This document shows positions 18,182-23,682 of a stretch of DNA of 64,000 bases, piece after piece (within the stretch, counting starts at the first letter, position 1; each line of letters begins with the position of its first letter). The stretch comes from Fusobacterium ulcerans ATCC 49185 (GTDB taxonomy: Bacteria; Fusobacteriota; Fusobacteriia; Fusobacteriales; Fusobacteriaceae): contig NZ_LR215979.1 of NCBI RefSeq assembly GCF_900683735.1, positions 2,604,001 through 2,668,000 on the forward strand, written 5' to 3'. The notes under the pieces are model-generated. The model saw only the letters and a program-made list of their open reading frames with translations. It did no database searches and was not told the DNA's origin. The position numbers and the translations under genes were made by a program.

Positions 18182-19618
18182 TTATACTTCCTCTGCTTCC
18201 AGAAGTTCATCATCATAAACATCTTTTATATCATCTGTCTTTTTAGCCAACTCAAACCAGAAATTTACAACTTTCTCTTCTGAAAAATATACTCCAAATT
18301 TACTCTTATGATTATCTAGAATTCCTCTTACAATGGATAATCCTAATCCATGTCCATCTCTATCTCTAACTTTATCCAATCTATAAAATGGCGTCCATAT
18401 ACTGTCTAAATCATTTTCTGTTAAACGATCTGTTTCATTACTTACAATTATTCTTTCTTTATTTCCAAGATCTTCTGCACTAATTATTACATCTCTTTCT
18501 CCAGAAGAGTATTTCAGAGCATTTACCACAAGATTATCCAATACTCTTTCAATATATTTTTCATCACATAAAACAAAAATTTCTTTACTTCCACTATAAA
18601 TTACTTTTTTATATTTAGAGGAATATTTATCTCTTATATCTTTAATTATAGGATAGAAATTTACCTCTTCAATATCCATTTTAAAATATCCTGATTCCAT
18701 CTGTGATATAAGTAAAAGTTCTTTAACCAATGAGTCCATTTTTAAACTTTCTTCCATAATAACTTCACAGTAGAAATTTTTATCCTCTTCATTTGCAACA
18801 TTTTCTACCAATCCTTGAGCATATCCTTGTATTATTGATATAGGAGTTTTCAATTCATGACTTACACTTGCTATAAATTCTTTTCTTAATTTATCCAATC
18901 TCTTTTCATTTTCAATATCTATCATGAGTTTCTTATTGACTTTATTTAACTCGTCTATACTTTTTTCCAGAGTTTCTCCCATTCGATTAATAGCATAACC
19001 TAGTTCTCCAATTTCATCTCTGCTATCTTTTTCAAACTTTCTATTGAAATCAAGTTCTGAAATTTTCTGAGTTATTTCCTTTATTTCCAATATAGGATCA
19101 GTCATCTTTTTAGAAAATATAAAAGACATAGATGAACCTATTATCAGTGCCAATACTATTATTAAAAGATGGTATCGTGTGGATATTTCAAGTCCCTCTT
19201 GAATAAAACTCAAAGGAGTTATTATCTCAATATACCTATCACTTCTATAGGGCATAAATAGTATTAAAACTTTTCCTCTATAGTCAAGAAGAGTTATTTC
19301 TTCGAAAACATATTCATTTTCTTTAAGTCTCTCTGCTATACTATCTATTTCACTTTTAGAAAGTATTGATTCTGTTTCTAGTTTATACAGCTCTTGATTT
19401 TTTTTTATAAGTATGGCAACATTTGAATGCATTTCAAGATTTTGAAAATCTATGACATATTTAGGATCGACAAGTATTTTTCCCAGTTCTACAAGTTTTT
19501 CTTTCTTGTTTTTTATATAGAATTTTTCCAAATAGATACTGTTTGTTACTAATAATCCTAAGATTATCATCACTACTACACTGAACATCAGGAAAAATAT
19601 CTTCCATCTTATTTTCAT
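18182..19618 (-). CDS. Sensor histidine kinase of the copper-operon two-component system
   Basis: 478 residues. Order: transmembrane helix 8-28, an extracytoplasmic sensor region of about 120 residues, second helix about 150-169, HAMP, HisKA with the phosphoacceptor His254 in SHELKTP, and HATPase (N-box LVVNALKYS, later GHGLGLSIV). The sensor region has no cysteine and only one Met-His pair, so direct copper binding is not evident. The start overlaps the response-regulator stop by 4 bp (ATGA). It is the last gene of a run starting with copZ, so it is probably cotranscribed with copper export genes. The signal is inferred from this context only. Confidence 0.93.
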   Translation of the reverse strand: MKIRWKIFFLMFSVVVMIILGLLVTNSIYLEKFYIKNKKEKLVELGKILVDPKYVIDFQNLEMHSNVAILIKKNQELYKLETESILSKSEIDSIAERLKENEYVFEEITLLDYRGKVLILFMPYRSDRYIEIITPLSFIQEGLEISTRYHLLIIVLALIIGSSMSFIFSKKMTDPILEIKEITQKISELDFNRKFEKDSRDEIGELGYAINRMGETLEKSIDELNKVNKKLMIDIENEKRLDKLRKEFIASVSHELKTPISIIQGYAQGLVENVANEEDKNFYCEVIMEESLKMDSLVKELLLISQMESGYFKMDIEEVNFYPIIKDIRDKYSSKYKKVIYSGSKEIFVLCDEKYIERVLDNLVVNALKYSSGERDVIISAEDLGNKERIIVSNETDRLTENDLDSIWTPFYRLDKVRDRDGHGLGLSIVRGILDNHKSKFGVYFSEEKVVNFWFELAKKTDDIKDVYDDELLEAEEV

Positions 19619-20280
19619 TTGTCTCCCTCGAATTTATATCCAAATCCTCTTACTGTCTGGATAAAGTTATCTCCTATTTTCTTTCTTAATCTTTTTATAT
19701 GTGTATCCACAGTTCTTGAATCACCAAAGTAATCCCATCCCCATACTGAATTCAAAATCTTCTCTCTTGATAAAGCCAGTCCTTTATTCTCGATGAAAAA
19801 ATATAAAAGATCATATTCTTTAGGAGTAAGTTCAAGTATTACATCTCCTAATTTTACCTCTCTCTTAGATGTATCTATAACAAGATCTCCAAATTCAAGA
19901 TATGTTTTATCAACTATTTTTCCATCTCTTCTCAGTAGGGCTTTTACTTTTGCTACTAATAATTTAGGATTGAAAGGCTTTATCATATATTCATCTGTTT
20001 CTAGTTCAAATCCAAATAACTGATCACTTTCATCAGCTCTAGCTGTAAGCATGATAATAGGAACCTGTGATTCTTCTCTTATTTTTCTGCATACACTCCA
20101 GCCATCTATTTTTGGCATCATTATATCCAGAATAACAATATCATATGTAGTCTGGAAGAAGAGATCCAGCCCCTCTTCTCCATCACCAGCTTCATCTACA
20201 CTATATCCCTCTCTCACAAGGTAATCCTTTATGAGTTTTCTTATTTTCCATTCATCATCTACTACAAGTATCTTTTTCAT
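19615..20280 (-). CDS. OmpR-family response regulator
   Basis: 221 residues with the start at 20280. The receiver domain has the acidic pair DD at 8-9, the phosphoacceptor Asp52 in ILDIMMPK and the conserved lysine in KPF; the C-terminal winged helix ends TVRGFGYKFE. The ATG is preceded by GGGGGG; an earlier in-frame TTG was rejected. It lies 28 bp after the double-domain csoR and overlaps its kinase by 4 bp. Control of copper or envelope-stress genes is likely by position but unproven. Confidence 0.94.
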   Translation of the reverse strand: MKKILVVDDEWKIRKLIKDYLVREGYSVDEAGDGEEGLDLFFQTTYDIVILDIMMPKIDGWSVCRKIREESQVPIIMLTARADESDQLFGFELETDEYMIKPFNPKLLVAKVKALLRRDGKIVDKTYLEFGDLVIDTSKREVKLGDVILELTPKEYDLLYFFIENKGLALSREKILNSVWGWDYFGDSRTVDTHIKRLRKKIGDNFIQTVRGFGYKFEGDK

Positions 20281-20308
20281 AAAGCCCCCCAATCATAAAA
20301 TCTTTTCC

Positions 20309-20887
20309 TTATTTAATCATTTTATTTAATGTGTATAAAAGTTCTGTAATAACTCTGTCTTCATTTCCTGATTTTATATCTCTTACTATACAATTCTTTA
20401 TATGTGATTCAAGCACTAATTTTGATACTCCATCAAGTTCTCCTTTTACTAAAGATATTTCATTAAGAACCTCATTACAATGTTCTTCTTCTACCAAATC
20501 TTTTATTTTTCCTACTTGTGTTTCTATCTTCTTTATCATTTCTGGCAGATCTTCTTTTACTTTTTTACTTGTTTTATCTATCATCTTATTTAATGTCTGC
20601 ACAAGTTCAGAGATAATTTCATCTTCTGAACCTGCTTTGATATCATTGACTACACAATTTCTTATATGAGATTCAAGTATTAATTTAGATACTCCATTCA
20701 AAGCAGATTTTACAGATGATATCTGATTAAGAACATCATCACATCCAACTCTATTTACCAACATCTTCCCTATTCCTCTTATCTGCCCCTCTATCCTGTT
20801 TATCCTTGCTTCCAGTTTTTTCTTAAATGCTGGGCATTCCTTGCTCATACATTCATTGGATATACAGGTTCTCTTTAATTTATCCAT
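20309..20887 (-). CDS. csoR: Tandem-domain CsoR-type copper-sensing repressor
   Basis: CsoR proteins are all-helical repressors of about 90-120 residues that release DNA when Cu(I) binds a Cys-His-Cys site. This 192-residue protein holds two such domains in one chain. Domain 1 (about 22-105) has Cys49, His74 and Cys78; domain 2 (about 115-192) has Cys137, His162 and Cys166. Both keep the 25- and 4-residue spacing of mycobacterial CsoR. Domain 1 retains the basic DNA-contact helix INRIEGQIRG; domain 2 has IKKIETQVGKI, with the arginines lost. The N-terminus adds Cys8, Cys13 and Cys18. It lies 20 bp after copA. Copper sensing is strongly implied; the effect of the fusion is unknown. Confidence 0.9.
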   Translation of the reverse strand: MDKLKRTCISNECMSKECPAFKKKLEARINRIEGQIRGIGKMLVNRVGCDDVLNQISSVKSALNGVSKLILESHIRNCVVNDIKAGSEDEIISELVQTLNKMIDKTSKKVKEDLPEMIKKIETQVGKIKDLVEEEHCNEVLNEISLVKGELDGVSKLVLESHIKNCIVRDIKSGNEDRVITELLYTLNKMIK

Positions 20888-20907: not shown

Positions 20908-23376
20908 CTATTTCTTAAAATTCTTAAGTCTCAATGCATTAGTTACTACTGAAACAGAACTCATAGCCATTGCTCCTCCTGCTATCATAGGATTCAAAAG
21001 ATGTCCTGTGAAAGGATAAAGTAATCCTGCTGCTATTGGTATTCCTAAAGTGTTATATATAAATGCCCAGAATAAGTTTTGTTTTATATTTTTGATAGTA
21101 GCATTGCTTAGATCCATTGCTGTCAGTACATCTTTTAGATTTCTTTTCATCAAAACGATGTCTGCACTTTCCATAGCAATATCTGTTCCTCCACCTATGG
21201 CTATTCCTACATCAGCCTGTACAAGAGCTGGCGAATCATTTATTCCATCTCCTACCATAGCTACATTATAACCTTCTTCCTGTAATTCTTTTACTTTCAA
21301 ATATTTATCCTCAGGTGTAACTTCAGCAAATATCATATCTATTCCAACCTGTTTTCCAATTGCTTCAGCTGTTATCTTATTATCTCCAGTAATCATTCCA
21401 ATTTTATATCCTCTTTCTTTCAATTCTTTAATAGTATCTACAGCTTCCTCTTTCATTACATCAGCAACTGCTATTATACCTAAGAATTTTCCATCTATAG
21501 CCATATACATTGGAGTTTTTCCTTGAGATGCCAATTCATCCAGTTCTTTTTTCATAGTTATTTCTATATTTTTAGCTTTCATCAGCTTGATGTTTCCTAT
21601 TAAAACTTCACTCTCTTCTATTTTACCATATACTCCCTGTCCAGTTATAGAAATAAAATCATTTACCTGAGGAAATACAAGTTCTCTGTTTTTAGCTTCC
21701 TCAACAATAGCCTCTCCCAATGGATGTTCTGAGTGAAGTTCCAAAGCTCCTGCTATTTGTAGTATATCATTTTCTTTATATCCATCTAAAGTTAAAATAT
21801 CTGTTACTTTTGGTTTTCCCTCTGTTAATGTTCCAGTCTTATCAAATACAACTGTATTTACTTTATGAGCTTTTTCCAGAGCTTCTCCAGATTTTATTAA
21901 TATTCCAAGTTCCGCTCCTTTTCCAGTTCCTACCATTATAGCAGTAGGTGTAGCAAGTCCTAATGAACATGGACAAGCAATTACCATTACAGAAATAAAA
22001 ATAGTAAGAGCAAATATAGAAGGAGTATTATTTATTTCTACAATACCACGGCTTCCTAAGTAATACCATATAATTCCTGCTGCTGTTGCTATAAGCATAA
22101 CAATTGGAACAAAATAAGATGATACTTTATCTGCTATCTTGGCAATAGGAGCTTTAGATCCCTGAGCATTCTCCACTAGTTTTATTATTTTAGATATTAC
22201 AGTATCTTTTCCAACTGCTGTTGCTTCTATTTTTAGACTTCCATTTTTATTTATACTTGCACCATACACAACATCTCCTGCTGCTTTATCAATTGGAATA
22301 CTCTCTCCTGTCAGCATAGATTCATCTACAGTACTGTTTCCATCAATTACTTTTCCATCAACTGGAATACTTTCTCCAGGTTTTACTAAAAGAACTTCAC
22401 CTTTTTCCACTTCTTCTATATCTACCTGTACTATTTCTCCATTTCTTATAAGATTAGCTTTTTTACTTTTTAAGCTCATCAATTTTTTTATAGCTTCAGA
22501 AGTTTTCCCTTTGCTTACTCCTTCAAGATATTTCCCTAAAAGAATAAGTGCCAGAATAACTACAGCAGATTCATAATAAAGAGAGTGAACATAGTGATGA
22601 TTTCCTTCTGCTATCTTAAAAGTTCCATATATACTATAAAGTAAAGCTGACCCTGTTCCTGTTGCTATCAATGAATCCATACTTGGACTTTTCATAAATA
22701 ATTGTTTAAATCCAACTATATAGAATCTTCTTCCTATATACACCACTGGTAAAGCAAGTATAAACTGCACTATTGCAAAATTTAATGGATTAGCATCTGG
22801 TGAAATAATAGAAGGAACTGGAAGTCCTATCATTGTACCCATAGCTATATAGAAAACAATAGCAGAAAAAACAATTGCTATTTTAAATTCTAAAAACTCT
22901 CTTTTTAAATGATCTTCTTTCTCTTTGTCTTTTTGGTTTTCAGAAGATTCTTCATGCCTTGTTCCAGTATATCCCATTTTTTGCATTACTTCAAGAATTT
23001 CTGAAAGCTTAATAACATCTGAATCATAAACAATTTTTCCTCTGCTGTTTGCTAAGTTTACTGCTACTGATTTTACTCCATTAAGTTTTGAAACTTTTTT
23101 TTCTATTTTATTGACACAGACTTGGCAGCTTATTCCATCAATATCCAATTCTATATCTTTTAAATCTGATTCTTCCTCTATTTCATATCCTAATTTTTTT
23201 ACAGTTTCTATTATTATTTCTTCTTTTAAAATTGTTTCATCATAATCAACTGAAAGTTTTTCTGTGGAAAGGTTAACAGTCGCTTCTTTTATTCCTTCTA
23301 ATTTAGATAATTTTTTCTCTATTTTATTTACACAAACTTGGCAGCTTATGCCACCAAGTTTATAAGTTTTTTTCAT
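20908..23376 (-). CDS. copA: CopA, Cu(I)-exporting P1B-type ATPase
   Basis: 822 residues, exporting monovalent copper across the inner membrane. Two N-terminal heavy-metal-associated domains carry CQVC motifs at 12-15 and 84-87. Next come the membrane helices with CPC in VIACPCSLG, the phosphorylation motif DKTGTLT, the nucleotide-binding HP dipeptide (SEHPLGEAI), and GDGINDSPAL. The transmembrane signature (CPC, with NA and MSS near the C-terminus) fits the Cu(I) group rather than zinc or cadmium. The start overlaps the copZ stop by one base. The downstream gene is the double CsoR. Confidence 0.96.
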   Translation of the reverse strand: MKKTYKLGGISCQVCVNKIEKKLSKLEGIKEATVNLSTEKLSVDYDETILKEEIIIETVKKLGYEIEEESDLKDIELDIDGISCQVCVNKIEKKVSKLNGVKSVAVNLANSRGKIVYDSDVIKLSEILEVMQKMGYTGTRHEESSENQKDKEKEDHLKREFLEFKIAIVFSAIVFYIAMGTMIGLPVPSIISPDANPLNFAIVQFILALPVVYIGRRFYIVGFKQLFMKSPSMDSLIATGTGSALLYSIYGTFKIAEGNHHYVHSLYYESAVVILALILLGKYLEGVSKGKTSEAIKKLMSLKSKKANLIRNGEIVQVDIEEVEKGEVLLVKPGESIPVDGKVIDGNSTVDESMLTGESIPIDKAAGDVVYGASINKNGSLKIEATAVGKDTVISKIIKLVENAQGSKAPIAKIADKVSSYFVPIVMLIATAAGIIWYYLGSRGIVEINNTPSIFALTIFISVMVIACPCSLGLATPTAIMVGTGKGAELGILIKSGEALEKAHKVNTVVFDKTGTLTEGKPKVTDILTLDGYKENDILQIAGALELHSEHPLGEAIVEEAKNRELVFPQVNDFISITGQGVYGKIEESEVLIGNIKLMKAKNIEITMKKELDELASQGKTPMYMAIDGKFLGIIAVADVMKEEAVDTIKELKERGYKIGMITGDNKITAEAIGKQVGIDMIFAEVTPEDKYLKVKELQEEGYNVAMVGDGINDSPALVQADVGIAIGGGTDIAMESADIVLMKRNLKDVLTAMDLSNATIKNIKQNLFWAFIYNTLGIPIAAGLLYPFTGHLLNPMIAGGAMAMSSVSVVTNALRLKNFKK

Positions 23377-23573
23377 TATTCCTCAACCTCGTATCCTGCA
23401 TCATCCAATGCTTCAATTATTTTTTTAAAATCATATCCTTCTGGGATATCAACAGATGCCTCTCCAATTTTTACATCCAATAAATTTACTTCATCTAAAC
23501 CTTCTAAAGCCTCTTTCACGTGTGCCACACATTTCTGACAACCCATACCATCTATTTTTATTATTCTTTTCAT
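23376..23573 (-). CDS. copZ: CopZ-like copper chaperone
   Basis: A 65-residue heavy-metal-associated domain with the metal site GMGCQKC (Cys12, Cys15) and the expected ferredoxin-like pattern. Such proteins carry Cu(I) in the cytosol to the CopA ATPase. AGGAGG precedes the ATG. It is the first gene of the operon and its stop overlaps the copA start (TAATG). Two CsoR-like operators flank its promoter. Confidence 0.93.
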   Translation of the reverse strand: MKRIIKIDGMGCQKCVAHVKEALEGLDEVNLLDVKIGEASVDIPEGYDFKKIIEALDDAGYEVEE

Positions 23574-23597: not shown

Positions 23598-23616
23598 TAT
23601 AGGGTATACCCCTATA
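23598..23616 (-). promoter_or_regulatory. CsoR-type operator 1 at the copZ transcription start
   Basis: The near-palindrome TATAGGG / TATACCCCTATA straddles the expected transcription start, immediately downstream of the -10. TACCCC(N)GGG-like dyads are the usual CsoR binding sequence. Binding here would block the polymerase. Confidence 0.65.
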
Positions 23617-23618
23617 TA

Positions 23619-23647
23619 ATAGTAACTCATTTTTTTCTAAAAGTCAA
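23619..23647 (-). promoter_or_regulatory. Promoter of the copZ-copA-csoR operon
   Basis: Minus-strand TTGACT, 17-bp spacer, TACTAT. The -10 lies about 45 bp upstream of the copZ ATG, between the two CsoR-like operator sequences. Confidence 0.65.
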
Positions 23648-23668: not shown

Positions 23669-23682
23669 TATATACCCCTATA
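23669..23682 (-). promoter_or_regulatory. CsoR-type operator 2 (half-conserved), upstream of the copZ -35
   Basis: TATATACCCCTATA repeats the right half of operator 1, about 65 bp away and upstream of the -35. The left GGG arm is missing, so it may be a weaker or half site. Confidence 0.45.

Follow-up and report, generated by a model that had tools for sequence, protein, structure and literature searches.

CsoR copper sensors are chains of about 100 residues with one domain each, and the window analysed here (the whole stretch of 64,000 nucleotides from Fusobacterium ulcerans ATCC 49185) contains, next to a copper ATPase gene, a frame coding for a single chain with two domains of this family. 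This raises the question of whether two genes have been joined by error and, if not, of how the two halves could share the work of a copper-responsive repressor. The features considered are listed in Table 1.

Table 1. Features of the two-domain csoR gene and its operon, in the order of transcription; positions are counted from the first nucleotide of the window.
Feature	Position	Strand	Description
Second operator half-site TATAGGGGTAT	23672..23682	-	66 bp upstream
Promoter-like TTGACT-17-TACTAT	23619..23647	-	Directly before the predicted operator; consensus scan only
Predicted operator TATAGGGGTATACCCTATA	23598..23616	-	Sole exact copy in the genome
HMA (CopZ-like) copper chaperone	23376..23573	-	65 aa; first gene of the operon
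copA, Cu(I) P1B-type ATPase	20908..23376	-	Two HMA domains; TIGR01511, 623.6 bits (cut-off 397)
Tandem-fused CsoR gene	20309..20887	-	ATG start, uninterrupted frame, 192 aa, two PF02583 stretches
N-terminal extension, residues 1-21	20825..20887	-	Cys8/13/18; clade-specific; low pLDDT
Domain 1 (D1), residues 22-103	20579..20824	-	CsoR domain; RINR (R28, R31), Gln55, copper ligands C49/H74/C78
Linker, residues 104-112	20552..20578	-	Charged; low pLDDT
Domain 2 (D2), residues 113-191	20315..20551	-	CsoR fold; ligands C137/H162/C166
OmpR-type response regulator (RR)	19615..20292	-	Next gene of the conserved cluster
Sensor histidine kinase (HK)	18182..19618	-	Last gene of the conserved cluster

Two CsoR domains in one reading frame

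A Pfam search carried out with the complete chain revealed two PF02583 stretches (135 bits in all), and the halves scored separately reached 91.7 bits (D1) and 53.6 bits (D2), both above the curated cut-off of 22.8 bits, each half alone being a member of the CsoR/RcnR family (DUF156, PF02583). The presence of two complete CsoR domains in one chain, proposed in a preliminary description of this DNA, was thus borne out by the whole chain and by each half, and the two ligand sets named there (Cys49/His74/Cys78 and Cys137/His162/Cys166, with spacings of 25 and 4 residues) were found exactly at those positions.

The same description had called for a search for two-domain proteins across Fusobacteriota, and had named a sequencing or frame error joining two genes as one of the findings that would undo its reading. 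PF02583 was searched in 98 Fusobacteriota genomes, 12 of which belong to the genus of the window. Both domains were found in one stop-free frame of 180-201 residues in all 12, that is, also in the eleven related species searched besides the Fusobacterium of the window, and the genes of other Fusobacteriaceae were single-domain csoR genes. None of the 12 genus proteins has, therefore, the one-domain chain of about 100 residues of CsoR, and the intact frame in every genome rules out a frame or assembly error. In close pairs, dN/dS was below about 0.1 in D1 and D2 alike (dN and dS of 0.016/0.914 for D1 and 0.016/0.814 for D2 between the window and L123), which together with the uninterrupted frames excludes chance or error. 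The purifying selection on D2, estimated from pairwise dN and dS among close relatives, indicates that this domain is kept by selection.

The N-terminal cysteines 8, 13 and 18 reported in the preliminary description are present in the window protein, but the trio occurs in only 5 of the 12 genus genomes, with a single Cys in six and none in L122, which has a shifted N-terminus. Judging from the sequences, the two-domain arrangement does not depend on this clade-specific trio. The N-terminus of the L122 protein (L122:4941-5480, minus strand) is apparently out of frame with its relatives, as a natural variant or a sequencing slip.

The D1 region of the full-chain AlphaFold model matched CsoR 4m1p with a Z of 12.0. 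D2 modelled alone (pLDDT 89) adopted the CsoR fold and matched S. lividans CsoR 4uig with a Z of 11.5 and 1.0 A over 83 residues, a fold partly imposed by the single-domain CsoR rows that its alignment held. The three-helix CsoR fold was present in the models of both domains, the alignments of which included CsoR rows. The full-chain model (pLDDT 74.5, pTM 0.45) also gave suggestive matches to helical bundles spanning both domains, and it was set aside as a guide to domain packing because of its uncertainty.

Of the 89 CsoR domains placed in a tree, the D1 rows formed one clade (98/90) and the D2 rows another (100/100), and both clades fell among the copA-linked CsoR proteins of Fusobacteriaceae. 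The stem of D2 (0.83) was about three times that of D1 (0.25). Since the grouping of D1 with D2 was weak (87/20), duplication within the lineage is likely rather than proven, and D2 is likely to be an in-lineage duplicate. The most likely origin of the two-domain gene is a tandem duplication, with fusion, of the copA-adjacent single-domain csoR of other Fusobacteriaceae.

DNA-contact residues and copper ligands

Operator binding by S. lividans CsoR requires R54 and R57 of the alpha1 RLXR motif and Q81 of alpha2 (PMC3902906), the counterparts of which in the alignment are R28, R31 and Q55. These three residues and R37 are retained in D1 in the 12 genomes, the alpha1 motif being RIxR or RVxR together with Q55, and R28 and Q55 were each found in 40 of 40 single-domain relatives. 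At the matching positions, all 12 D2 domains carry I or M for R28, K for R31 and E, D or V for Q55, the change from Gln to an acidic residue being common to 11 of them; in the window protein the replacements are R28 to M, R31 to K, R37 to G and Gln55 to Glu. The DNA-binding set of two alpha1 arginines and one alpha2 glutamine is therefore found in 12/12 D1 domains versus 0/12 D2 domains, and the net charge of alpha1 ranges from +4 to +6 in D1 and from -3 to +1 in D2.

The loss of DNA-binding residues in D2 is well supported by this alignment. The covalent CsoR pair of the preliminary description, one half competent for DNA binding and the other altered, is thus real and conserved across the genus, and the comparison adds to it the loss of the invariant alpha2 Gln in all 12 D2 domains. 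The accompanying claim that D2 lacks the Arg-rich DNA-contact helix stands for the alpha1 Arg residues, which are gone, but not for the helix itself, which is still predicted.

The copper ligands (the Cys-His-Cys X-Y-Z set) are complete in D1 in 12 of 12 genomes and in D2 in 11, the first Cys and the His of D2 being present in every genome and the last Cys being replaced by Ser in L118. Single-domain relatives have a nearly invariant Tyr before the first Cys, and neither D1 (K, G, N or S) nor D2 (H or C) has kept it. In M. tuberculosis CsoR this Tyr belongs to the signal-perception network (PMC5146963), and the copper response may therefore differ in the two-domain protein.

The copper operon and its predicted operator

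The gene order HMA65-copA-csoR2-RR-HK is kept in the 12 genus genomes, which includes the linkage to the copper efflux genes HMA and copA, with CopA assigned to TIGR01511. In sister genera a single-domain csoR occupies the same slot beside copA, and an RR-HK pair of the same kind lies behind a single-domain csoR in several sister records (L036, L043, L131 and G041-G043). The identity of the two-domain protein as a putative copper repressor is well supported by sequence.

A predicted G-tract pseudopalindromic site, of the TATAGGGGTATACCCTATA or ATAGGGGGGTACCCCTAT type, is located upstream of the operon, in the same position, in the 12 genomes. Other operators searched for in the genome amounted to one site with 3 mismatches, and the operator half-site was no commoner in the genome than its reversed control. 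The same or a near-identical predicted operator was found in Cetobacterium, which has a single-domain CsoR, and in a further Fusobacteriaceae record (L037, L039, L040, L041 and L064), and the fusion would therefore have left the DNA target unchanged. The unchanged predicted operator suggests that two D1 domains meet it as two ordinary subunits do.

Proposed assembly of the chains and relation to the CsoR family

In FrmR, a member of the same family, four subunits form a disc, each face of which is a homodimer with two positive patches, and the effector site bridges subunits from the two faces (PMC5146963), which is where this site lies in the family. We consider it moderately probable that the two-domain protein is a copper-responsive repressor of its own efflux operon in which a dimer of chains makes a CsoR-like pseudo-tetramer, with a DNA-binding D1/D1 face and a DNA-blind D2/D2 face. 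For the assembly, the copper sites, the binding mode and the copper response alike, we infer the following scheme. D1 would read the operator, and D2 would make no DNA contact and would be retained as the covalently attached sensor and scaffold half, two chains assembling into the pseudo-tetramer. Pairing of D1 with D2 of the same chain at the effector site would create composite sites (C49 with H162/C166, and C137 with H74/C78) and would give the disc one face, D1/D1, binding the operator and another, D2/D2, unable to do so. Cu(I) binding would distort the D1/D1 face and the DNA would be released. Such a one-faced geometry would explain why only one domain has lost its DNA residues, why both have kept the ligands and why the operator is unchanged, the pTM of the full-chain AlphaFold model being 0.45. 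That this is a natural one-faced CsoR with composite D1-D2 copper sites, in which one face suffices to recognise the operator and to respond to copper, is put forward as a tentative possibility.

The copper-site pairs could also be formed between chains, D1 with D1 and D2 with D2, the D1 pairs being ordinary CsoR dimers and the D2 pairs a separate metal module, such as a copper buffer or an affinity tuner. The charged, low-confidence linker would permit this pairing, the same-domain ligand sets are complete in 11 of 12 genomes and the packing of the domains is uncertain in the full-length model. However, each face of the disc would then combine a DNA-competent D1 with a DNA-blind subunit, and these mixed faces fit the unchanged palindromic operator badly unless the D1 pairs act alone; we regard this pairing as rather unlikely. 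It is improbable that D2 is a passive scaffold that holds the tetramer without sensing, its DNA residues having been lost under relaxed selection with one DNA face being enough: the long stem of D2, the ligand missing from D2 of L118 and the modelling of FrmR with one face on one site (PMC5146963) would agree with it, but in close pairs dN/dS is equally low in the two domains, the Cys and His of D2 are invariant with the last Cys in 11 of 12, and the change of Gln to an acidic residue is shared by 11 of 12. An effector other than Cu(I), for instance another metal or persulfide, is very improbable, the loss of the Tyr and the Cys-His-His set of the sister single-domain proteins L036 and L131 being set against a Cys-His-Cys set that is that of CsoR, an operon that also codes for a Cu(I)-type CopA and a CopZ-like protein, and a CsoR-type G-tract predicted operator.

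With regard to the preferred one-faced pseudo-tetramer, it is an open question for the family whether DNA is bound by one face of the disc or by both (PMC5146963), and the two tetramers per operator that have been proposed for it are supported by no high-resolution structure (PMC13101592). With an operator that has not changed and a chain of which one half is DNA-competent and the other DNA-blind, the question of how the CsoR family holds DNA becomes directly testable, as do the stoichiometry on DNA, the number of copper sites per chain and a role of the blind half in carrying the allosteric signal. The chain also illustrates a route, by fusion, from a homo-oligomeric to an asymmetric sensor.

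With the CsoR proteins of S. lividans, G. thermodenitrificans and M. tuberculosis (PDB 4uig/4adz, 4m1p and 2hh7), the protein shares the PF02583 fold, the Cys-His-Cys set, an RLXR-like motif and Gln in D1, a predicted G-tract operator and linkage in an operon to copA and a CopZ-like gene; unlike them, it has two domains per chain, a D2 without DNA-binding residues and no Tyr before the first Cys. Its closest sequence relatives are the single-domain CsoR proteins of Cetobacterium and other Fusobacteriaceae (e.g. L041, L039 and L035), coded in the same slot beside copA, those of Cetobacterium having a near-identical predicted operator. All of these differ in having one domain of about 100 residues. 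FrmR, RcnR, InrS and CstR share the fold, the FrmR tetramer being disc-like with two faces, but they have other effector ligands and one such domain per chain.

Among the best 80 of 490 relatives in GTDB 220, in a ranked and pattern-based scan from which near relatives may be missing, two domains were found only in L034 (the same record as genus member G025). Viral contigs gave no match, and plasmid matches with apparent coverage of the two halves were only about 300 bases long and correspond to single-domain genes matched twice. No two-domain CsoR was found in a non-exhaustive search of open-access papers. The CsoR-CsoR fusion is a variant of CsoR and not an ordinary member, new with respect to the open papers and the relatives outside the genus that were searched, neither search being exhaustive.

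Four candidates for two-domain relatives outside the genus were rejected, L038, L061 and L060 having adjacent separate csoR genes and L059 one single-domain gene. In Paenibacillus (L038:6370-6723 and L061:6316-6720) a second csoR directly follows the first, and it keeps RLNR and Gln and has lost the last Cys ligand, a specialisation opposite to that of D2 and in separate genes.

Other Fusobacteriaceae code for longer chains in which a CsoR-family domain follows an N-terminal region of about 130 residues (L129:2240-2854, L130:2280-2909, L133:1979-2608 and L128:2242-2871 (-)). L133 is a rhodanese-PF02583 fusion according to Pfam, differing from the protein described here in its rhodanese partner, in Phe at the position of the His ligand and in having no CsoR-CsoR tandem; such proteins are possibly CstR-like persulfide sensors. 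The nearest single-domain relatives (L036:5938-6252 and L131:4501-4950) carry Cys-His-His for Cys-His-Cys, which suggests a different metal or effector.

The genome of the window has one further CsoR-family gene, single-domain, near a 680-residue iron-hydrogenase-rubrerythrin fusion and a Fur-family gene (L125:4739-5011, minus strand, and L125:2183-4620). A second heavy-metal P-type ATPase, with an operator-like TATACCTATAGGGGTATA upstream, is also located near this gene.
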